Assembly: GCA_018296165.2 (NCBI GenBank)
Contig: JACKQL020000004.1
Span: forward strand, 1,240,001-1,304,000
Direction of reading: 5' to 3'
From: Termitomyces sp. T153
Lineage: Eukaryota > Basidiomycota > Agaricomycetes > Agaricales > Lyophyllaceae
Length of the DNA stretch: 64,000 bases
The notes beneath the pieces were generated by a model, which was not told where the DNA came from, did not search any database, and saw nothing but the letters and a program-made list of their open reading frames with translations. Position numbers and translations under genes: made by a program. This document shows, one piece after another, positions 8,027 through 21,918 of this stretch. The first letter of the stretch is position 1. Each line of letters opens with the position of its first letter.

Positions 8027-8922
8027 CCAAATTGCGGCCATCTGTGATATGATTTGTCGCTCAGGAGCCCTGACTATAGCTACTATATACTTAATCTTCT
8101 TAATTTCTCTAGCTGAATTTCACAAACTTAAATGAATCTACGTATGGCTACATCCATTTTTGGTTCAGACTCGAAGAACGCGGAGCGAAACGGCTTATTC
8201 CCGGATCTTGCAATTTAAAGTGCCCGAGTGGCTTAACTTCAAGATCGTGGTACATGCTCAAGCCCAGTGAAAAGTCGGTATGGGGAAACAAGGGGGATCA
8301 AGGTGAACAAGTAAAATCAAGTAAAATCAAGTAAAATCGAAGCAAGATCGAGACACCATCGAGACGTCAAGTTCACGTCAAAACTCATAATCCTTCAACT
8401 TGTCAACGCGTCGTGTCATCGTTGCATATCGTTGCATCATCGTTGCATCTTTGTACCATTTTCCTTAGCTAAATTTGATTGATTCCTTTCGTCTCAACCG
8501 ACTTTGGTGAGATTGTGCTGTTCAAGTTGTAACGTTTACATGGTCCTCGAGCCCAGTTTCTCGACCTTACGGAAAACTATGCTAATTCTGCGACTGTCCC
8601 CTTTATTGCAAGCGTAGAAAGCAAGTATCCAAAGCGACATACTATCCCAGCCCCGTAGTTCGGAGTACCCCCTGAGTCGGACGTCATATTTAGTCACACT
8701 TAGTCAAACACCCTTTTCAAACTCCGCCCAGAGAATATTATGGGGCTATATTCTTGCGTACACACAGATACAGAAGTATCACAATCATTAGGATTCCTGT
8801 ATGTAGTATAGAACAACAATATCTGTCCTTATATAAGCAATAGTGTATATGTAAAATGTGCAACATGTAAAATACAAGCTACGGTCTGTGCCTTCAGCAC
8901 GGGCCTGTAGCTCTTGCTTCAT
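8027..8922. other. Intergenic region left of the transposon island
   Basis: No gene recognised. There is a short direct repeat of the 10-mer gtaaaatcaa in three tandem copies (about 8309-8338) and a cluster of gttgcat repeats around 8424-8450. CpG dinucleotides are still common here, unlike the region to the right, so this is ordinary host sequence. Confidence 0.5.
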
Positions 8923-9145
8923 CCCAGACCCAACCTCACTTTGTTTGATTAGGTCCTTGTATTTCCAACTCCATGCTAAGTCACTGACCCAACCTCACTT
9001 TGTTCAGTTAGGATTTTGTATTTCGAACTCAATGCTAAGTCCCAGACCCAACCTCACTTTGTTTGGTTGGGTCTTTGTATTTGTTAACTCAATGCCAAGT
9101 CCCAGACCCAACCTCACTTTGTTTGGTTAGGTCTTTGTATTTTGT
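8923..9145. repeat. Tandem array of about 60 bp hairpin-forming units
   Basis: Almost four direct copies with starts near 8923, 8983, 9041 and 9101. Each contains acccaacctcactttgtt followed by a g/t-rich half that is roughly complementary to its beginning. In the last unit (9104-9134) agacccaacc pairs with ggttaggtct across an 11 nt loop with one mismatch. A single diverged copy of the same hairpin occurs at 28613-28651. Such hairpins recall the subterminal hairpin of Helitron 3' ends, and a Helitron helicase relic lies just to the right in the matching orientation, but the assignment is inference. Confidence 0.75.
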
Positions 9146-9575
9146 TGACTAAGTGTTGCTTTTCTCTAACAATTCAATACACTGAGATTTCATGTATAAA
9201 CCAATCAAGTATCTATATTACATCATTAACAAAATACTACAATGTCCACTAGTATATATTAGAGATGCTGAAAATTATAAAAGTTAGTACTAACCAAGCA
9301 ATTATTTAAACTGTCACACTTACATTTGTAAACCATTAAGAATATCTATACTACATGGTCCAGCTATATACATTAGGTGCTGAAGTTAATAGAAGTTAGC
9401 AATTTGTTGCTTGTATCCATCAAAAATTATACTTACATTTGTAAACCATTCAGTATTTCTTGATAGACAATATTTGCAGTCTTTCTTGATGTGTTTTCTG
9501 GGTCCAAAATCACTTTGATACAATCTCCTGATGTGCACAAGAAAGTGCAACATAAAGTTGGCCATGTGCAAAAAC
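9146..9575. other. AT-rich transposon-derived spacer
   Basis: No coding potential. A diverged direct repeat built around cttacatttgtaaaccatt occurs near 9321 and 9432. The stretch has no CpG that I can find and links the hairpin array to the helicase relic, so it is probably part of the same mobile element. Confidence 0.4.
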
Positions 9576-9579
9576 TTGT

Positions 9580-9722
9580 AAGGGCAACCTCTGGAGGCTG
9601 GGGCTCAATCACACAGCTGGCAAAGGGAAATCCAAAGTCTATTCAGTACTGTACAGTGTCTACTGAGATAACTACTCACCTGGCAAAGGGAAATCCAAAG
9701 AGAACAAGTCTGGGGTTTCCCT
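9580..9722 (-). repeat. Truncated LTR-like fragment, inverted relative to the Gypsy element
   Basis: Reverse-complemented, this stretch resembles the right part of the Gypsy LTRs at 15176 and 20594. Both carry two copies of the core ggaaatccaaag (ggggaatccaaag in the LTRs) about 58 bp apart, followed by agaacaagtct. The left part of the LTR is not present. It is therefore an LTR fragment or a sequence shared by both elements, lying immediately downstream of the helicase relic. Confidence 0.6.
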
Positions 9723-9879
9723 AGGCCAGGTGTGACACTTTAGAGGCTTCAGAAGCATGAGAAACAACTGTACAGTATGACAGAGAAAAAAGACACAAGT
9801 GATGTGTCAGCAATTGGTCAGCAGTTACATAAGCCAGTGGCAGTGTCAAAGGGCCACACTTGTCTGAATTATTGACAGA

Positions 9880-11340
9880 GAACCAGTGCAGCCTGAGGGC
9901 TGAAACTAGGACCAATAGATAGGGAAAAGGAAGGAGAATAAAGGAAAACTATAACAGAGCAAATCTGACAAGAACTGGAGGAGAAGGGGAAACAAGTGAG
10001 ACATCCCCTGACAAAACTCCTGATTGAAGGTCCAATCCAACATGCTTGACCAATTGATCCTGAGACTTGTTGATTGTCATAGCAAAGGCCAACCAAACTG
10101 AGAATTGTTTCCTGCACAATGGAATTGGCAAATCTGCTTCAGAAACATTCATGTTGACTTGGAATCAAAACAATTGATCCTGCAAACTTGGCATCCCCAC
10201 TGATGATCCTATATCTGAGAACTCTGGTGCTGATGTGGGTGACAATCATTCTTGTCCCATTGCAAAGTCCTTTAGTTGTATACAGATTCCTGAGCAGCAT
10301 GACAGGAACACCAATCTTCAGAGCCAATCTAGCCAAAGGCAAACTGCTGGCTCTGAGAGAGTTGAGGTATTTCATTGGACACAATCCAAGGCCATTAGGA
10401 TTCCCATCATCAGATATACTAGAGTCTGCACTCTACAAGATTTTCTCTTCCTCTGGACATTTCTGCAGAACTTCTGAGTTGATATCCTCTACATCAGAGT
10501 TCTTGCCAGAAAGAATGGTACAGTCCAGGTAATATTGATCATCTTGATGGTGATCAATATGAGGATAAGTGAAAGAGATCAATCCAGTGACAGAATTGTC
10601 ATCACAGATCATGGTTTCTGGAAGTTGTACTGTTTCTCCAGGCCCAAGGTTTTTTCCAGCACCAACATCCAATAACCAAGCTGCATGAGCAATGTATGTG
10701 ATCAGGAGTCTGATCCAATCTCATGTTTTGAACCAAGTAGTGAACTTGAATCTGATCCCAAAGTCTTCCCCTTTTGAGTGAAGCAGCAACCATCTGCTGC
10801 CTGAGTCCTTCCCTTGTTGGATAACTGGGAGAGTTTGTCAAAAATCTCCTCCAAACACCACAGTCATTCCACCAAAAGGAACATCTTTTTTCAGAATGTC
10901 TCTGAACCCTTGATCCACAGAGTCAATGGCATTTTTGTGTTGCATTGGGACTTCATCCCAGATGACAACTTTGGTTCAGAGTAAGAATTGAGACAATTGA
11001 GTTCCTCTTTTGATATTGGCAATGGATGTATCCAGAGCAGGAATGGGGATTTTTAACCTTAAATGTGCAGTTCTACCACCCTCCAGCAATAAGGCAGCAA
11101 TTCCAGATGATGCTACACATAATGCCACATCTCCATTGGACTGAACAGCAGAAGCCAAAGTGTTGCCAACAAATGTTTTGCCACATCCACCTGCACTGTG
11201 AACAAATATTATCTTGCCTAGGTTGTTGTCCACAGAGTCCATAACTCCATTGAAGGCCCCAGCTATTCATCATTAAACCTGGCCTTGTTTTCATCCACTC
11301 TTCTCTTCAACTCCTCAACATCATAATCAGTTTCTTCTTG
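9880..11340 (-). pseudogene. Helitron-type PIF1-like helicase relic
   Basis: The C-terminal helicase half of a Helitron Rep/helicase, broken by several stops and frame changes. Reading on the minus strand one sees a Walker A motif, HSAGGCGKTFVGN, near 11170-11210, then ASSGIAALLLEGGRTAH, IWDEVPMQHK near 10950, FGGDF followed by a TGA and QTLPV near 10830, then LKIGVPVMLLRNL, GLCNGTRMIVTHI and the late motif AFAMTINKSQDQ with KHVGLDL near 10040-10100. The TGA after FGGDF stands where the family has Arg (FGGDFRQ), which fits a CGA to TGA change. I see no Rep domain upstream, so the element is 5'-truncated or has been rearranged. Confidence 0.82.
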
Positions 11341-12214
11341 CAAAAGCCTATTTCCTGAAATCATTTGATCAATAACAATGTTATGTAAAATATAATAATT
11401 GAATAAATAGAATATAATTTAAGGGGCTTAGCCCAGTTACAAGCAATCTTGCAATGTACAAGAAGACTCAGAGCCACTACTAATTTATTGAAAGCCACCA
11501 AAATGACCAAGGGCTGCTACAGGCCACCAAGGATATGGCAGATCAAGTGGTAGATGGATACCACAGACAGTCAACAGTCAGTGAGTTCCCATCTGCAGTT
11601 TCACTCCAAGAGGTGCCAAATTGGGCAATCTTGGTTGATTGACATGGTCCTCCCAGATAAGGACATTGTTGTTGTATGTGTTGACAGCTGGCAAAAACAG
11701 CAAGGCCTGAATGGCACCTCATAGCATCAACCCAATGCATGAATGAACTCTGTTTATGTCACTGGCAAGTCACTATACAGGGCTAAGAGATGGGGGTAGA
11801 ATAGTGACTCTACATCAATAGTAAGTACTGGTGGGCATTGTGATGTGTCTGTATCTGTATAGTATCTAGTAGCAGAATTCTCCTTGCAGAATCTTGTGTG
11901 GCTAGTGTATGGCACAGTTATGTTGTGGAAAGGTAGAACATGAGGTACTGGGTGTCATTTTGGTTGGGATGATTAATGGCTTGTGGCAGGGCCTAACATG
12001 ATGTGTTCTTCCAGAGTCTTCATGTACATGGGGTATCTTGACCTCCCATGGTGTGTGGTTTAATGCCTTGCCCCTTGCATCCTTCATTCCTTGGTTTCCT
12101 CTGGTACTTCACAAATTTGCTTCTGCATCCTCCTCCTCTCCCCTTCCCAGCTCTTATCTCCTATCCCCCCTCTTGGCATTCCTCCTCTTCCCCATGCCTC
12201 TCCAATCTATTCCA
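11341..12214. other. Unassigned transposon-derived sequence
   Basis: It lies between the helicase relic and the end of the LINE reading frame. A minus-strand open frame at 11543-11740 (65 residues) has no domain I recognise. The stretch has essentially no CpG and belongs to the island. It may be the 3' tail of the LINE or a 5' segment of the Helitron. Confidence 0.4.
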
Positions 12215-14995
12215 CTATCTTTCCTCTTCTTTGTCATTATCTTCATCCTCTGCTATTAGTCCATTTCTTGGAACCCATGAGTACCCCATTTTGGTAAATG
12301 CGCTGGTCTTGCTTAGGATCTTTGCCATTGCCTCTAATCCATCCTTTGTTCCCAGCAGAATCCCAATCTCCAGCTGTTTATTGACTATCCTCAATACTCC
12401 CTGTTGTTCCTCATAATTCAAACAGTGCTGGATTATGTGTTCCCTTGTCTGGAACCTCTCTCCACATATGCATCCTATACTCTCATTAGGCACAAATTTT
12501 GCACAGTACTCACCTATGAATGTGTGTTTTGTCCTGCATTGTGTGAGTCTGCTAAACACTTCCCTTGGCATGTGTACCACATGTTCTCTTGGCTTCCACC
12601 TGGGAGGAAGATTATTCACAATTGCAAATCCTCCTGTTCATGGTGCTTTCTGCCATTCCTTGGTATACTCTTCTAGGGCATTCTCCTTTACACTCCTTCC
12701 TTTATTTGTGTGGACAGTGTGATCCAGTTTTCACATCTCTGGTCTCTTTGCTTCTTTGTCTGCCTTTTCATTGCTCCCCACATCCTTGTGTCCTGGGCAC
12801 CATTTGATTCCCACCATGTTGTTGGCCCCCCTGTTGAAGAAGTTGTCCACAATATAGTGATGTTGATCATGTGTGATTGGCCAGGCTTTGGTTTTGGTCT
12901 ATATAATGACATCACTGCCACTGTATTGTCAGCAAATATGTGAATATGTTTGACTTGCCTTTGTGTCTTTGCATATCTTGTAGCTGCCCTAGCTGCCTTC
13001 ACTATCTCCATTAGCTTGGCATTGTATACTTTGGCCTTGTTACTGAGTCTGCTTCTCTCCACAAACACCTCCATGCCCTTGTGATATCCAACTATGCCCC
13101 ATCCTACTGTTTTAGCCTCACTTAGAGAGTCTCTTACATGGATCTGTCCAAGTATACCAGTATTTGTATTTAGTCTGCTTCAAGTATTTTTATCATTTCA
13201 TTGTGTCTTTTTTCCTCTTCCTTTTTCTGGGCCTTTTTTTGGCATGCTGGTGATTGTCAGTCTGTTCCCAAACTTCTCTGCTGTGCTATGCCATGGAGGT
13301 GAAAGGAATGGGTCAATGTTCTCACCCTCCATCAGTTTGTATGTTATCTTTGCAATTTTTTTGAGTTGATTGAGTTTCTAATTTGTCTTCTTCCTTCTTG
13401 GTTTCTTAGATGGCAGTGGTAGTGGGCTGATGGCCTGTCCCATCTGCCTCTAGTCATCCAACAAACATTTGAGGTTTGGGTTTGATGCCTTGAGTCTGTG
13501 CAGTCTGTTAGTGTATCCAACTGACTGTTGTGCTTAATACTATTTTTAGAGGTGGTATAGCCATGTCAACTTCTAGTGCCTTGGTCAGTGTGGTTCTAAA
13601 GGCCCTCACTATATATCACAGTGAGTCATTCTGAATCTTGGTCAGTTTCTCCATGTGCACCTTCTTACTTGTCCACCACACCAGACATTGATGTGCTCCT
13701 ATGCCACCTAGTGCCAAACAGGAAACCCAAAAAGGAAGACCTATACACTAGCAACTAGATAGGGTAGCTGATAGTAGGAAGTTAATAAGAGGGTGAGTCA
13801 GTAACTGTCCCAGAGAATGAGAGCTAATGGGGGTGGAGTAATTGAGAAGTGGAAGGAGTCACTATTGCTAGCCTAAGTTGCTATATGGTAATGAAGGGTT
13901 GCTAGGTAAAAGAGAGGGAAACAAATGAAGACAAAATAGTTGCTAAGAAAAGGGGAACTAGGCAGTAAAGGGGGAGTTGGGAAATAAAGGGAACAGTGAA
14001 GACAACAAAGCTGGGGAACAAATGCAAACTAGTTGCTAACTGTAGTTGCTAGCATTGCTAAGTCAAAATAACACAAAGGGCACCCATAGCCAGTACTACA
14101 TAAAGTTGAAATCAAGGTCAGCAAGACCTGTCACTGAGTTATTGTTGATGGCAAGCAAAAGAGCAAAAAGAGATCTTAAGCTAATAAGCTTAGAGCTAGT
14201 GAGGAGGAATGGTACTCTGTTCTGTTCTCTTGTCTCTATGTACAGGCAGTATTTATACTGTTTGTAGGTATAGTATTAAAAAGGAAATATAAGTTGCTGC
14301 CAGCAACAGCATCTGCCAAGGTGTTTATGATACATACTGAGTGTCAGTCTGGTAACCAGGTAAAAGTATGCAATGTCAATATGATGTGTAAAAATTGTCA
14401 ATCACAGAAAAAGAGCATTTCTGACATCAATACCTGAAGTGTAGACACTATTCAAGTCTATTTGTAAGCTCAACAAGAAATATGATAAGTAAGAAATCAC
14501 ATGACTGTCAATATATCCCTATTTGGAGAGGAGGTGGTGTTGTTGCCAAGTAGTGTTGCTAGCAGTCATTGCTAAAGAAGGTCTCAGCCTTATCATTCTA
14601 GATCCAAAGTCCAGACTTCATGTGATGTAACTCATGATCAATAAGTCTCATGGTTGCTAAAATCCCATACAAAGGCTACATTGTTCCAGACCTTGGGGCT
14701 AGGCTTCACATGCTGAGTATCATGACTTGTGCCATGTCATGTACAATATAGTCAGCTGCTGTCCAATCAGAGATGCCAAAAATGGTGCTCAGCAATAAGT
14801 GGGTCTTATCAACATGCATACATCATAATTGGTACAATACATGCTCTGTATGTTGATGCCTCTTATTGTGCTGGCAGGGATGAAAGACTCCATTGCTGCA
14901 CTCTTGGCCTTCTGGATTATCTTGTGGATGTGTTGGTTGAATGTGAGTTTCCTATCACATTTTTGATGTAAATGATAGACAAGTGGACAATGCAC
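12215..14995 (-). mobile_element. Degenerate non-LTR (LINE) retrotransposon, RT C-terminus to RNase H and zinc motif
   Basis: Fragments in consistent minus-strand order. At 14995-14810 is a segment ending the reverse transcriptase, with DRKLTFNQHIHKIIQKAKSA. Near 13700-13540 follows CLVWWTSKKVHMEKLTKIQN, then FRTTLTKALEVDMAIPPLK. At 13110-12700 is an RNase H domain with GWGIVGYHKG and IHIFADNTVAVMSLYR. At 12619-12215 is a zf-RVT-like finger (CICGERF, then HIIQHC) and an acidic tail. The frame is broken by stops and shifts. About 1.1 kb of unrelated sequence (about 13720-14790) separates the first two fragments and looks like a later insertion. The order and domains match fungal LINEs that carry RNase H. 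Confidence 0.78.
13720..14790. repeat. Putative nested insertion inside the LINE relic
   Basis: This block has no coding potential and interrupts the LINE reading frame. It is marked by many scattered gttgcta and ttgctag motifs (for example near 13740, 13870, 13890, 14030, 14050 and 14550) and has a TATA-like ggcagtatttatactg near 14240. It could be a solo LTR or a non-autonomous element. The edges are set only by where LINE similarity stops on either side, so they are approximate. Confidence 0.4.
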
Positions 14996-15022
14996 AATTA
15001 TCAGCCAATGCAGTCAAATTGA

Positions 15023-15135
15023 TGCATTATTGTGTCTAATTAGAGATGGTACATAATGCATTTTTCTGTATAATCAGTTCTGTAATGCATTATGCATGAT
15101 GCCAAGTACAAAAGTAATGCATTAATGGCATTAAA
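15023..15135 (+). repeat. Left inverted arm of a small TIR-like element
   Basis: This arm is matched in inverted orientation by 21322-21430. The best-conserved core is atggtacataatgcattttt, flanked in both arms by tgtctaat and by several taatgcat words. The two arms bracket the complete Gypsy element plus about 0.5 kb of other sequence, as expected if the retrotransposon inserted into a MITE-sized DNA element. Confidence 0.65.
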
Positions 15136-15170
15136 TTAAACAATAAGTACAACAACTTGGGATTAATCCA

Positions 15171-15175
15171 GCATC
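15171..15175 (+). other. Probable 5 bp target-site duplication, left copy
   Basis: The bases gcatc directly precede the 5' LTR. After the 3' LTR the corresponding bases at 20963-20967 are acatc. One mismatch in five is compatible with an aged 5 bp duplication made by a Ty3/Gypsy integrase. Confidence 0.5.
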
Positions 15176-15543
15176 TGTCAAAGGACTTCCATTTTCAACC
15201 TCTGCAGCTTGCTCCAGCACATCCACAGCTTGTTTGACATCTCCAGGGCTCATTCCAGACCTCCAAAGATCTCTGGAGACTCACAGGACTTTCTATATTA
15301 CCTCAATAATCACTTCCCTAGGTTAGGGCTAGCTCCAGCCTTCTGTATAGCCATTCCCATGCCTTTGCCACCTGCTGACACACTGCACCAAGCAGCAGGG
15401 ATCCTTAGACTTGTTCTCTTTGGATTCCCCTCTGCTAAGTGATTAGTTACTGCTGTATTGTCATCTACTTTGCTAATATACTTTGGATTCCCCTCTGCTA
15501 GCTGCATGACTCTGAGCTGCCACTCCCAGAGGTCACCCTTATA
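15176..15543 (+). repeat. 5' LTR of the Ty3/Gypsy element
   Basis: About 368 bp, beginning TGTCA and ending ttata where the 3' LTR ends ttaca. It is nearly collinear with the copy at 20594-20962. The differences I saw are mostly transitions plus one or two single-base indels (for example cctagg versus cctaggg). It contains two copies of ttggattcccctctgcta about 60 bp apart. Confidence 0.88.
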
Positions 15544-18500
15544 GCAGAACAAGTGTCTAAAACTGGTCTGGAAGCCCCTCATAGCCTACAAGGAATTTCC
15601 AAGCTCCTATTTGTTGCTTCTCTACCAGGATCAAGCACTGCAGAGTTCTATGTCTCAGCTTGCCAACCCAGACACCCTCTTGGGGGCTCCAGCCCCACAG
15701 GACAAAGCCTGGACTTGCCTGCTACACCTAGAAAACCAGGTGCAACTGACACAATCATCTCTCACTCACCACACAACCAAACTCTTGACCCTCCATCAAA
15801 CCACAGATCATATTTCCCAATCACTCTAGGCATTGCTTGAGCACCTACCCCCTATCTCCACATCTCCCCTAACAGTGGAACCAATCCCAGCCATTCTGGT
15901 AATTGCTCCCACAGCTCCAGTGACCCTATGGCTGCAGATTCCACATTCTGCACTCCCAGACATGTATGATGGTGCTCGCTCCAGTGGGGAGTGCTTCCTC
16001 CAGTCCTGCCTCACCTACATCCACCTGAGCAGGGATGCCTTTGACTCTGACATGCTGAAGATAGCTTGGATACTGTCATATATAAAGACTGAACATGCCT
16101 CCACCTATGCATTGTGGGTTTTCTGATGCCCCAGAGGTGTTAGAACTTTCATGGACTGGGCAGCCTTTAAAAAGGACTTTTGCATGGAGTTTTTCCCACT
16201 TGACCCCACCAAAACCACTGCCTTAGCACTATGTGACAGGGAGCAGTATGGGCAAGAGAATCAGATGCTGGACAAGTACATTGACTCTTTCTGGGCATTG
16301 GTCAAGCAAGCCACCTACCCCAATAGCCTTCAACTGTGCCTCACATTCCAGGATGGCCTGCACTCCATGTTGATAGAACACATCAACAACCTTGCAGAGG
16401 GCTGCCCAGACAATGAAAGGATTGCTTCCTGTTACAAGGTAGCCAGAGATCAGTGGCAGCTTATGGAGATTTGTTGGGAGCACCACTGTGTGCACCCCAT
16501 GTAATGCCCCACTCTGGTTGCCAGCCTCCAGTACCCTGCACCTGCTCCAACCATCCCTATACCACACCCCTTGCTTCTAGGCATTCCCATGGACATGGAC
16601 ACTGCCTGACAGCTCCATGCTGCACCATTACTGTGCTGGAGATGCAAGAAACCTGAGCACTTTGCATGACACTGCCCATTTGGGCTGGAGGTATGCTACC
16701 TCTCTATAGTGGAGCAGAAGGAACTCCTCATGCAACTGTTGACCACAAAGGATACCACTGGAGCTCTGTCACCTGACAAGCTAGCACTGGAGTCAACTCC
16801 AGAGATCAATGCCTGCACATCACCCCTGGAGCTAGAGAAGGATTTTTGATTATGCAATGGATAAGGTGTATGCCTCTGTTGCCAGGTACTAACAGGTTCT
16901 CATGTCTGTCATTAGAAAATGAAATTGTCATTTCTGATGCCCATCATTCTAAGACAGAAGAACCTCAGGTTCCCCCTCTAGATGTACAAACACCAACTCC
17001 AGAGTCCAAGCCAAGTTCCCCAATACCAGCTAGGACTTGCTGGCACTGCTCTGCCTGAGAGTGCTAAATGCCCTGGCAGTACATAGTGGCCTTGAGCCCC
17101 TCCACAAACTCACTGTGCCTCAACATAGAGATTGAGACTACGGACACCCAGCAAACTTGCAGAGTCACTGCTCTCCTAGACAGCAGAGCAACAGGACTGT
17201 TCTTGGACTTGGAGTTTGTCAAGCACCTTGGCCTGACTATGTAGCTACTTTCCAAGCCTATTCCAGTATTCAACATTGACAAAACACCTAACAAAGCAGG
17301 CACCATCAGCTCCATAGTCAACCTCATCCTCCACTACCAGAATCATGTGGAATGTGCAGTCTTTGCTGTCACTAGTCTGAGCAAGCAGGACATGATTCTT
17401 AGTTTCACATGGCTCAAGAAGCACAACTCCAAAGTAGATTAGGCCAGGTATGAGGTAGCAATGAGCCAGTGCCCTCAGAAGTGCTCTGCCTATACCACAG
17501 AGGTCAAGAAAGAATGCTAGGCTCAAGTTCAAGAGCATGTGGCCATCCATGCATGCCACACTGGCCCTCTCTCCTCTAGACCTCCTGGATCCCCCATACC
17601 CCTGGCATTCCCCAGTAGAGGGGCCCTCTACAAGGACAACCAGAGTAGCAGCAGAGCTCCAGAGGAGGAATGCAGAGAGGAGTTTGGAGGTGTACATGAC
17701 CTGGAGCTCCTGGACAAAGCAGTAGAGGTTGGGGACTGAATTTATGCCACCACCTTACATTTGCCACCCTCCATCATGGAGATCCAGGCTAGCCAGACCA
17801 CATCCCAGCAGCTGGCCCAGGTGTTTGCTGCCAACTCTATGCCCCAGGCATTCTGGGACATTGTGTCTCCATACCTCCATGTGTTTGAGGATGTGTTCTC
17901 TAAAGCCTTGTTTGACTTACTCCCAGAGTGCAAACAGTAGGACCATGCCATTGAATTAATGCCAGACTCTAAGCCCTCCAGCTGTAAGGTCTACCTGCTA
18001 GCACCCAAGGAGCAGAATTAACTCAATTCCTTCCTGCAAGAGAACCTAGACTCCAGTCAGATCCACCCCTCCAAATCCCCAATGGCTTCTCTAGTCTTCT
18101 TCATTAGAAAGAAGAACAGCTTGCTTTGACTGGTTCAGGACTTCCAAGTTCTCAATGCCATGACCATGAAGAACCACTACCACCTCCCCCTCATCTCTGA
18201 GCTCATCATCAACCTCCAGGGTGTGCAGTACTTCACCAAACTGGATGTCTGGTAGGGATACAATAATACATGCATCCAGGAGGGAGACAAGTGGAAGGCT
18301 GCCTTCCAGACCAACTGGGGATTGTTCAAACCTCTTGTTATGTTCTTTAGACTCACCAATAGCCTGGCCACCTTCCAAACAATGATGAACAACATCTTCC
18401 AAGACCTTATTGCCAAAGGCATAGTGTGCATATACCTCAACAACATTCTCATCTACACCAAAACACTGGAGGAGCACAGCCAGATCATGTGCCTCATCTT

Positions 18501-20593
18501 GGAATGCCTCTGCCATCACCAGCTCTATCTCAAACTGGAGAAGTATGAGTTTGAGCAGATCCAGATTGAGTATCTTTGCCACTGGGGCAGTTCTCTTGCA
18601 ACAGTATCCAGGAGATGGGAAGTGGCATCTAGTGGCCTTCTACTCCAAGAGCCTGAATGTGATAGAGCATGACTATGAGATCCATGACAAGGAGATGCTG
18701 GCCATCATCTGGTCATTCAAGGAATGGCAGCATTTCCTAGAAGGTACATGACACAAGTTCAAGGTCTGGATGGATCACAAGAACCTCAAGTACTTCTGGA
18801 TGGCCAAGAAACTCAAACACCAACAAGCCCAATGGTCCTTCTATCTAGCCAACTTCAACTTCTCACTGCACCACAAGCCAGGCTGGAGTATGGGAAAACC
18901 AGATGCCCTGTTCCAAAGAGCAGACCATGGCACTGGAGGAGAGGACAATAGCAACATTGTGCTCCTCTGTTCTGAATTGTTCACAATCTGAGCCATGGAA
19001 GGTCTAGCTGTCAAGGGAGCAGAGGTGGACATACTCTGGGACATCTGATGATGTAACCAGGATGGTTAGCTGTTGCTCAGGCAGCCTGGGTGCTGAAATT
19101 GAGATGCACCACTGGTGCCAAGTTGGTATACACAGACAAATGGGCCCTCCAGGATGGGATCTTGACTTTCTGGGATTGCATCTACATGCCCAACATTCTG
19201 AAGCTCTGTCAGAGGATTGTAGAACAACACCACAATTCCCAGATTGCTTGACACCCTGGGCAATGGAAGATGCTGAAGCTAGTATCCTGGAACTACTGGT
19301 GGCCCCAGATGTCTTGATATATTGGGTCTTACACTAGTACATGCAATCTCTGCCTCTGGACCAAGCCCCAATGCCATCTCTCCTCTGGACAGCTGCATCC
19401 CCTACCTGTCCCTGCAGAGCAATGGAGTGTTGCCTCAGTGGATTTCATTGTAGAGCTCCCCAACACCCACAGTTACAATGCTATCATGGTAGTGGTGGAC
19501 CTGTACAGCAAACAAGCACACTTCATTCCAACTCACACTGCCTGCTCCACCATGGGCACCACAAACCTGTACTGGAGGGATGATTGGAAGCTCCATGGCC
19601 TCTCCAACACCTATGTATTTGACCAGGGACTGCAATTTGTAGTGGACTTCACCAGGGAACTCTACCAACTACTTGGCATAAAGCTCCACACCTCCACTAC
19701 CTACCACCTGCAGTCCAACAGCCAGACCAAATGTGTGAACTAGGAGTTGGAGCAGTACCTCCACCTCTTCTGCAATGAGTGCCAGGACAACAGGACAACT
19801 GGGACAAACTCCTTCTCAACACCAAGTTCCAGTACAACAACTATGTACACACAGCCACCCAAGTCTTGCCCTTTTTCCTTGACACCAGATGTCACCCATG
19901 CATGAGTTGCAAGCCCTGGGCCTGGCCTTCAGAGAATGAGGCAGTGAACAAGTTTGTGGACTGGATGAAGAGATCACAGAAAGAAGCCCAAGTGGCTCTG
20001 GCAAAGGCAAAAGATGACATGGTGTGATACTACAACCACAGAAGGACCCTGGTGCCCAAATACCAGCCTGGAGATTGAGTCTACTTAGATGCCTCCAATA
20101 TTATAACTACCCGACCATCAAAAAAGCTTTTGCACTGTCAATTGGGCCTTTCACAGTAAAATAGCAGGTAGGGCCCCTAGCCTATTGACTCCAGCTCCCT
20201 GCAGGAATGTGCCAGCTCCATCCAGTGTTTAATGTGGTCAAACTAACTCCAGCCCCAAAGGGACCTATTCTGGGGCAACACCCACCACCCCCACCACCCC
20301 TGGTAGTGGTTGATGAGAGCAAGAAGTATGAGGTGGAGGAGATCCTGGATAGCCATTTATTCTGACAATGACTACAATACAAGGTCAAGTGGAAAGGTTA
20401 CAGAATTGAGGACATTTCCTGGGAACTGTGGAAGAACATGCACACTCTGGGGCTTATCAGGGAGTTCCATCAGAAGCACTCAGATGCACCACATGCCATC
20501 CAAGGAATCAATCCCATCTCACCAGTGTACTGGGCAAACCAGAACTTTTTCTTTTCCCACATGTTGAGATGTCACACACTAGAGAAGGGGTGA
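15544..20593 (+). pseudogene. Ty3/Gypsy chromovirus internal region (gag-pol), inactivated
   Basis: The domain order is that of a chromodomain Ty3/Gypsy element. Gag lies about 15830-16650, with PDMYDGARSSGECFLQSCL and a CCHC knuckle CWRCKKPEHFA (16644-16675) interrupted by TGA. The aspartic protease near 17165-17200 reads ALLDSRATG instead of DSGATG. Reverse transcriptase (about 17990-18560) has YLNN instead of YLDD at 18433-18444, and a TAG where Trp is expected in KLDVW. RNase H covers about 18590-18900 (FYSKSLNVIEHDYEIHDKE). Integrase (about 19180-19980) has DFIVELP and VFDQGLQF but a stop just before the catalytic Glu region. A chromodomain (YKVKWKGYRIEDISWE) lies at about 20320-20470. 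At least ten stops or frame changes break it, so no active protein can be made. Confidence 0.92.
20580..20593 (+). other. Polypurine tract of the Gypsy element
   Basis: The purine-rich run tagagaaggggtga immediately precedes the TGTCA start of the 3' LTR, where plus-strand priming takes place in this class of element. The assignment rests on position and composition. Confidence 0.6.
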
Positions 20594-20962
20594 TGTCAGG
20601 TGACTTCCATTTCCAACCTCCACAGCTTGCTCCAGCACATCTGCAGCTCATTTGACATCTCCAGGGCTTGTTCCAGACCCCCAGAGATCTCTGAAGACCC
20701 ATGGGACTTTCCATATTACCTCATCAATCACTTCCCTAGGGTTAGGGCTAGCTCCAGCCTTCTGTATAGCCATTCCCATGCCTCTGCCACCTGCTGATGC
20801 ACTGCACCAAGCAGCAGGGATCCTTAGACTTGTTCTCTTTGGATTCCCCTCTGCTAGGTGATTAGTCACTGCTGTATTGTTGTTTACTTTGCTAATATAC
20901 TTCAGATTCTCCTCTGCTAGCTGCATGACTCTGAGCCACTGCTCCCAGAGGTTGCCCTTACA
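20594..20962 (+). repeat. 3' LTR of the Ty3/Gypsy element
   Basis: About 369 bp from TGTCA to ttaca, matching the 5' LTR at 15176-15543 over its full length. The many transition differences between the two LTRs show that the insertion is old or has been heavily deaminated. It is followed by acatc, the probable right target-site copy. Confidence 0.88.
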
Positions 20963-20967
20963 ACATC

Positions 20968-21321
20968 CTCACATAGCATAATGGTTTAATAGAACAACAT
21001 TAACAATTACACCAAGCAATTGTTACAACAAAAAGCAAAGGACACTTTAAGTAGGGGGAGGAAGATATACTGTCCTAAATCTTAACCAAACATTAACCCA
21101 AACCACTAACAAACTGAACAACTTAACTGCTCACCTTAACAATCACCAACTAACCAGCTAACCTGTGGGAGCAGTAAACAGGTCTTTCTTATGGTATGTA
21201 CCATCTTTGACTTCTGTTGTTTTAATTGTTCTGTTGGTGTAATGGTTCTTGTAGAACCTTGGTCAGATTATGTATACATAAGGCTGTTGGTTCAATCCTT
21301 TCTATTTGTGTTCTTATTTCC
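20968..21321. other. Interior of the small TIR-like element, with a tRNA-like promoter
   Basis: Non-coding sequence between the 3' LTR and the right inverted arm. It contains an A/C-rich stretch near 21060-21150. Near 21235-21298 it holds tggtgtaatggtt followed 42 bp later by ggttcaatcc, which resemble the A and B boxes of a tRNA or tRNA-derived SINE. No clean cloverleaf can be folded by eye. Confidence 0.4.
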
Positions 21322-21430
21322 TAGGTAATGCATCACCATCCTTAATGCATTACTGATATGTACAACATCCACTAGAGAGAAAAATGCATTATGTACCATG
21401 TGTGATTAGACAGGATCATGCATTGTGATG
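21322..21430 (-). repeat. Right inverted arm of the small TIR-like element
   Basis: The reverse complement aligns with 15023-15135, best over the core containing acataatgcattttt. CpG-rich host sequence resumes at about 21461, so this arm is close to the right edge of the transposon island. Confidence 0.65.
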
Positions 21431-21460
21431 CCTCCATCTAGTGCAATTATGCAGTAAGTA

Positions 21461-21918
21461 TCGCCTTTTTCTCCATATGTTCCATCTCAGGTCTTCTCAA
21501 ACCAACCGATGATCAATTCGACTCCATAAATGGCCGTTTCCGCTCAATCAAAATGGACGGCAAAATGGACGGCAAAAAGATAAGGCTGTTAGTAGCATGC
21601 GGGCCGCCGAGAGGTCAGAGCACTCAGCGTTCAAACCACAAGGGCTCCAAGTCTACTGGAGAACATCGTCAATGGGACCTTAGTACAGCTGACAAACCCA
21701 TACATAATCTTCTGGCAATAAGTCGATTCTACCAACGTTGTACCATACATAGTCCTGCGTTCGCTGCGAAATTTACGCGGACCGCGTGACGGACCGTATC
21801 ATCAGCTGATATTTTGTACCATGGGAAGGAGACCCTTAAAACCTACTGGGAAGCATAACATGATCTCCCTGCTTCTTTTCTGCATCTTTCTGGCTAGAAA
21901 AGTGAAAGCGCTCTTGCT
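21461..21918. other. Promoter-side region of the sugar transporter
   Basis: Host-type sequence with frequent CpG. No gene recognised. A short direct repeat, aaaatggacggc, occurs twice near 21550-21573. This stretch must hold the promoter of the sugar transporter, now directly next to the transposon island. Confidence 0.45.

Follow-up and report, generated by a model that had tools for sequence, protein, structure and literature searches.

The subject of this analysis is a window of 64,000 nucleotides from the genome of the fungus Termitomyces sp. T153 (GenBank assembly GCA_018296165.2, contig JACKQL020000004.1, positions 1,240,001 to 1,304,000), in which positions 9030-21460 form an island of transposable elements (TEs) that is almost devoid of the dinucleotide CpG. 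This CpG desert is real, and it very probably represents the end state of mutation at methylated CpG in the TEs of this member of the Agaricales. The window lies on contig C4, and the genome amounts to 72.4 Mb in 307 contigs. Among the best 120 of 1032 hits listed, an open frame of 513 aa from the host is nearest to proteins under the names Arthromyces, Tricholoma and Termitomyces (identities of 82%, 77% and 85% over 97%, 100% and 87% of the query), in keeping with a host in the Agaricales. The island retains four CpG (12301, 15977, 17141 and 20112), exactly those listed by a model that had only the letters of the stretch at its disposal (the sequence-only reading), where 618 are expected under independence and 538 at the observed-to-expected ratio (o/e) of the flanks. 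The CpG o/e is 0.01 in the island compared with 0.89 in the left and 0.87 in the right flank, while GpC stands at 0.97 in the island and at 0.98 and 0.95 outside. TpG and CpA, which had been described as abundant, are indeed enriched (o/e of 1.53 and 1.42 compared with 1.13-1.14 and 1.12-1.14 outside), and TpA shows no rise (0.68 compared with 0.70). CAG, CTG and CHH show no depletion, in contrast to CCG and CGG (1 and 1), both of which contain CpG. In sliding windows of 200 bp (step 50), 229 of 245 positions within the island lack CpG altogether and the maximum o/e is 0.14, whereas none of the 1024 positions outside lacks it and the minimum is 0.12. The comparison by sliding windows with non-CpG controls that the sequence-only reading had proposed therefore bears out its claim, and the opposite outcome, a CpG o/e close to that of the flanks or an equal depletion of GpC, was not found. 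As only four CpG remain, bisulfite sequencing of the island itself would tell little.

Several repeats are nested in the island: a Helitron remnant, a fragment resembling a long terminal repeat (LTR), an unclassified remnant and a Gypsy element that retains its two LTRs (Table 1). The right edge of the island is sharp and coincides with the edge of a repeat: genomic copies of this repeat end at about 21444, the first CpG to the right follows at 21462, and the o/e in 21445-21644 is 1.0. On the left, the last CpG before the desert is found at 9024, within a minisatellite, whereas many Helitron-like copies match from 8872-8877 inward; the intervening sequence (8877-9029) has 3 CpG and an o/e of 0.39. 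The left edge of the desert thus lies about 150 bp inside the Helitron-like element and not at its end, so that the earlier placement of both edges to within tens of bases holds for the right side only. When the two edges were used as queries, the unique parts of the flanks were matched in the window alone (40 of 2394 and 40 of 850 candidates scored), and consequently neither an empty site nor a second haplotype was available for comparison.

How the CpG were lost can be followed in the Gypsy family. A search with 2 kb of the interior of the element as query returned 77 matches (40 of 1369 first-look candidates scored), and the 22 fetched loci that span one half of 1.1 kb were aligned with the window copy into 23 rows, while the 7 of 29 loci that cover the other half were left out. 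Mixtures of TG and CA occupy 101 of the 1130 columns, compared with 5, 20 and 31 for the mirror controls AC/GT, CT/TC and GA/AG, and the dinucleotides in these mixed columns amount to 1088 TG, 1031 CA, 13 CG and 141 TA. Such mixtures indicate that the common source of the family carried CpG at these positions and that its copies lost them through mutation on one strand or the other. The choice of strand is uncorrelated along the element (lag-1 autocorrelation of -0.010 compared with 0.005 +/- 0.023 after permutation, in a set of 22 rows and 108 columns from which one duplicate row was dropped and in which TA counted towards the threshold), and the agreement between copies (0.571) shows no excess over the 0.593 predicted from column frequencies. 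Mixed columns occur at every codon phase (35, 27 and 46), which implies that the founder was CpG-normal at synonymous sites as well. The LTRs of one element are expected to be identical at insertion; over 361 columns, those of the window copy now show 11 TG/CA swaps, together with 14 transitions, 1 transversion and 1 indel. In these alignments, the CpG of the Gypsy family have thus mutated independently in each copy and about equally on both strands.

The Helitron family displays the loss in graded stages. The helicase search gave 42 matches (40 of 328 candidates scored), of which 30 loci, one being the window, were used. The 29 other copies share 93.8-94.8% identity with the window copy, reach mean identities of 95.9-98.3% among themselves and contain 0-5 CpG in 1261-1274 bp. 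Six columns were taken as ancestral helicase CpG, four of which still show CG in some copies; CG is kept at 0, 1, 2, 3 and 4 sites in 7, 1, 6, 6 and 9 of the 29 copies, respectively, and this retention drops with non-CpG divergence (rho -0.77, p 1e-6). The minisatellite at the end of the element offers further sites, with two CpG positions per unit and 1-14 scorable units per copy, and all stages of decay are present across copies (191 CG, 159 TG, 70 CA, 1 TA and 1 GG in total). CpG retention in the minisatellite behaves similarly (rho -0.76, p 2e-6, in the 28 of 29 copies that have six or more scorable sites), although the p-values of both correlations are too optimistic given that the copies are related, and divergence serves as a stand-in for age.

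Much of the CpG poverty in the Helitron part of the window most likely arrived with the element. The helicase frame is open over the full stretch in 6 of the 30 copies, and the 2540 codons of these six contain 25 CpG at codon positions 1-2 (arginine CGN), 1 at positions 2-3 and 0 at positions 3-1, the latter among 2534 codon-boundary dinucleotides. The six copies are near-identical, and the 25 arginine CpG correspond to about five distinct sites rather than to 25 events. AGA and AGG account for 139 of the 164 arginines in these frames, and three host open frames have a CpG o/e of 0.70-0.98 in every codon phase. This pattern suggests that the source of the young Helitron family had already been stripped of CpG almost wherever the protein allowed it; many family copies retain CpG in the terminal palindrome and the minisatellite. 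For the window copy, which is diverged and broken, we infer this inheritance. Stops interrupt 114 of 150 matches to the domain Helitron_like_N (281 candidates), with 194 TGA, 33 TAG and 16 TAA, an excess of TGA that is predicted by decay of CGA, in raw counts uncorrected for codon use. The chances are roughly even that an active Helitron lineage has long been chronically methylated, has lost CpG where its protein allows and is still amplifying, while the Gypsy family started out CpG-normal and was erased. If this is true, the CpG content of a founder by codon phase would tell transposons able to persist under methylation apart from those that burst and then die out, and a desert of this kind would partly be an inherited trait of the invader.

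By sequence, the genome is predicted to encode the CG methyltransferases that such a history would involve, namely DNMT5 and two DNMT1-like loci. A profile search with PF00145 gave four matches at three places (6 candidates scored). One is a piece of DNMT5 with a score of 1.7e-81 to PDB entry 7r76 ('DNA repair protein Rad8'), which we take to be Cryptococcus Dnmt5, and the two further places are DNMT1-like according to their nearest structures (5.7e-11 and 2.2e-8). None of the four matches is RID-like by nearest structure, in an exon-wise search that could miss a methyltransferase of this type. The second DNMT1-like gene (contig C121) is located in sequence with a GC content of 0.52-0.58, compared with 0.45-0.48 in the window. 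Reviews name DNMT1 together with DNMT5 as the enzymes chiefly responsible for CG methylation in Basidiomycota, where methylation falls preferentially in TEs (PMC7862722, PMC13297926).

Under the explanation preferred here, DNMT5 and DNMT1-like enzymes would place methyl groups on the CpG of the elements, and the resulting 5-methylcytosine would deaminate to T, leaving TG or CA. The Gypsy element would have arrived with its full complement of CpG and decayed in place, whereas the Helitron was most likely already poor in CpG to a large extent on arrival and would have lost its remaining CpG (arginine codons and terminal repeats) after landing. The flanks, presumably unmethylated in the germ line, would have kept their CpG, resulting in the observed borders. 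Deamination of methyl-CpG is favoured because the loss is specific to CpG with normal GpC and no increase in TpA, because in the Gypsy family the strands are equal and the sites independent while the loss in the Helitron family rises with divergence, and because the loss is nearly complete in old copies of a genome that encodes DNMT5 and DNMT1-like sequences. The sequence-only reading had interpreted the desert as a footprint of methylation and deamination confined to the island. The comparison of copies supports deamination at CpG, but the desert was probably not all made in place, and although the flanks within the window are indeed spared (0.87-0.89), the footprint belongs to element families on many contigs. 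Across 70 fetched loci, mostly picked as transposon copies and thus no sample of the genome, 324 of 650 windows of 400 bp have a CpG o/e below 0.02.

Several observations weigh against this explanation. Relative to C-to-T changes elsewhere, CpG loss per strand is estimated at 15 for the helicase, 23 for the minisatellite and 30 for the Gypsy family, rough ratios that assume star-like descent and extend beyond the published vertebrate range. C-to-T changes outside CpG are themselves about 3-5 times as frequent as A/T transitions in the Gypsy and Helitron alignments, alike in CpA, CpC and CpT, so that CpG methylation is not the sole bias. The TG and CA counts of the minisatellite depart from the 1:1 ratio of the Gypsy family, for which a shared history of the units may be responsible. 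In addition, the Gypsy columns were selected by their TG, CA and CG content, and the copies are best-scoring matches rather than a random sample.

Alternative explanations make different demands on the same data. Repeat-induced point mutation (RIP) mutates in strand tracts, and its ascomycete type is ruled out by CpA/TpA (TpA of 0.68 compared with 0.70) and the absence of such tracts. A RIP-like process of the kind proposed for Ganoderma, with an enzyme that detects repeats during the sexual phase and mutates their CpG in a single generation or a few, would account for the restriction of the loss to repeats, and a TE pattern of this CpG type was named RIP in Ganoderma sinense, where almost all of the TEs concerned are also methylated (PMC4457147). 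Such a process is nevertheless improbable in the present case, since there is neither a CpA-to-TpA signal nor a run of one strand, partial states are common among the helicase copies, and the PF00145 matches resemble DNMT5 and DNMT1, in an exon-wise search that could miss a RID-type gene. Taken on sequence evidence, the graded intermediates favour gradual deamination over a burst of this kind.

Selection could also have shaped the Helitron family if a low CpG content lets elements evade methylation and spread, which would favour CpG-poor lineages, and the near absence of CpG at synonymous sites of the young open-frame copies is what this would produce. We regard it as unlikely, though less so than a RIP-like burst, given that passive mutation combined with purifying selection on the protein yields the same codon pattern, that the Helitrons retain CpG in palindrome and minisatellite, and that the Gypsy family is left unexplained. 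The sharply different composition of island and flanks might further suggest that the DNA is foreign and stems from a CpG-poor organism, or that assembly or base calling produced an artefact at methylated CpG. The TG/CA swaps within the LTR pair and between Gypsy copies imply that CpG was present at insertion and rule out foreign origin as well as compositional accident, and the loss follows divergence and codon phase, of which read errors cannot know, leaving this last explanation with almost no probability.

Loss of CpG in basidiomycete transposons is already known; in the island described here it has run almost to completion. CpG-biased C-to-T changes in basidiomycete TEs have been put down to methylation followed by deamination (PMC4352252), and CpG hypermutation that also extends to genes is described for Rhizoctonia solani (PMC4014442). 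The TEs of Microbotryum, rusts and Ganoderma share with the present case the CpG target, the DNMT1-class enzymes and the proposal of methylation and subsequent deamination (PMC4352252, PMC4457147), but these papers give fractions of biased TE copies, whereas here a loss of 99% over 12.4 kb is accompanied by an age series within a family and by independence of the strands. In the rust Austropuccinia psidii, younger TEs are likewise richer in CpG, and its authors infer deamination of 5-methylcytosine and not RIP; the correlations are genome-wide and weak (r of 0.18 and 0.12; PMC12774611), in contrast to the sharply bounded desert reported here, where the young members of one family are already CpG-poor. 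C-to-T changes in repeats are shared with Neurospora-type RIP in ascomycetes, which differs from the present pattern in its target (CpA instead of CpG), its strand tracts and its lack of graded states. CpG suppression in vertebrates likewise converts methyl-CpG to TpG and CpA, whereas here it is confined to transposons and deeper (o/e of 0.01). The excess of CpG>T is given as 5-20 fold for vertebrates and 1.5-4.5 for plants from polymorphism (PMC12994199), compared with about 15-30 here from differences between copies, two measures that are not the same. No report on purging of CpG by codon phase in fungal Helitrons was found in a literature search that lacked most subscription journals, which is weak evidence of absence.

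The genome of Termitomyces sp. T153 offers unusually clean measures of this process: endpoints at which the loss is nearly complete, intermediate states in grades, two separate groups of CpG sites within the same copies and the contrast of two families by codon phase. Gradual deamination and a RIP-like burst in mushrooms thereby become distinguishable from sequence, and the question is raised whether host methylation wears some transposons smooth, or whether they adapt to it, while they are still active. The inherited layer of the Helitron family is the part most worth following.

Table 1. Features in and around the CpG-depleted island, with positions counted from the first nucleotide of the window.
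Feature	Position	Strand	Evidence
Terminal palindrome of Helitron-like element, 3' end	8878..8917	-	palindrome pattern; copies match from 8872-8877 inward
59-bp minisatellite, four units, inside Helitron end	8908..9142	-	internal repeat
LTR-like fragment interrupting Helitron	9576..9720 (at least to 9720)	-, inverted relative to Gypsy LTRs	inverted repeats I1, I3, I4
Broken Helitron helicase (PIF1) remnant	10100..11400	-	PF05970 3.7e-24, PF21530 7.6e-20 on two pieces
Unclassified repeated coding remnant	12215..13074	-	two open frames, 134 and 128 aa
Four remaining CpG	span 12301..20113	.	dinucleotide count
Left arm of inverted-repeat pair flanking Gypsy	15022..15072	.	I2, 84% complementary to 21373-21423
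5' LTR of Gypsy, 0 CpG	15176..15546	+	direct repeat
Gypsy reverse transcriptase and RNase H pieces	18322..18751	+	PF00078 1.2e-9, PF17919 3.3e-17, PF17917 4e-17
Gypsy integrase piece	19438..19743	+	PF00665 1.3e-5, under Pfam cut-off (25.8 of 32.6 bits)
3' LTR of Gypsy, 0 CpG	20594..20965	+	direct repeat
Repeat at right desert edge	20966..21444	.	copies elsewhere end at same place

The right-hand element can be assigned to the Ty3/Gypsy LTR retrotransposons by its LTRs, which begin with TG and end with CA, and by the order of reverse transcriptase, RNase H and integrase (the integrase match being under the Pfam cut-off). The bases beside both LTR ends show no visible match that would indicate a target-site duplication in this old and diverged element. 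Two Gypsy stretches are identical on contigs C264 and C83, either through recent duplication or as a duplicated piece of the assembly. The unclassified remnant has 45 genome matches and four homologous proteins, two of which are hypothetical proteins of Termitomyces sp. J132; a Pfam search with this remnant and the other small frames gave nothing over the cut-off.

The left-hand element is classed as Helitron-like by its PIF1-type helicase, which is nearest to Helitron transposase: the nearest solved structure to the window pieces is Helraiser, matched by an open copy elsewhere at 3.3e-68. The helicase remnant in the window has 0 CpG and 15-18 stops per frame of its strand, and Helitron homology breaks where the LTR-like fragment begins. 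None of the 150 genome matches to Helitron_like_N (150 of 281 candidates scored) falls in the window copy; in family copies (e.g. on C2, C4, C46, C69, C200 and C282) this domain precedes the helicase by about 1.36 kb on the same strand. The terminal palindrome, which retains CpG at 8882 and 8900, marks the 3' end because the helicase lies on the minus strand, and its pattern recurs in 27 of the 30 Helitron loci, with pairing judged by eye. Several Helitron copies lie less than 1 kb from a contig end (C5:187, C29:6, C69:957 and C303:956) and may be subtelomeric or mark assembly breaks at repeats.

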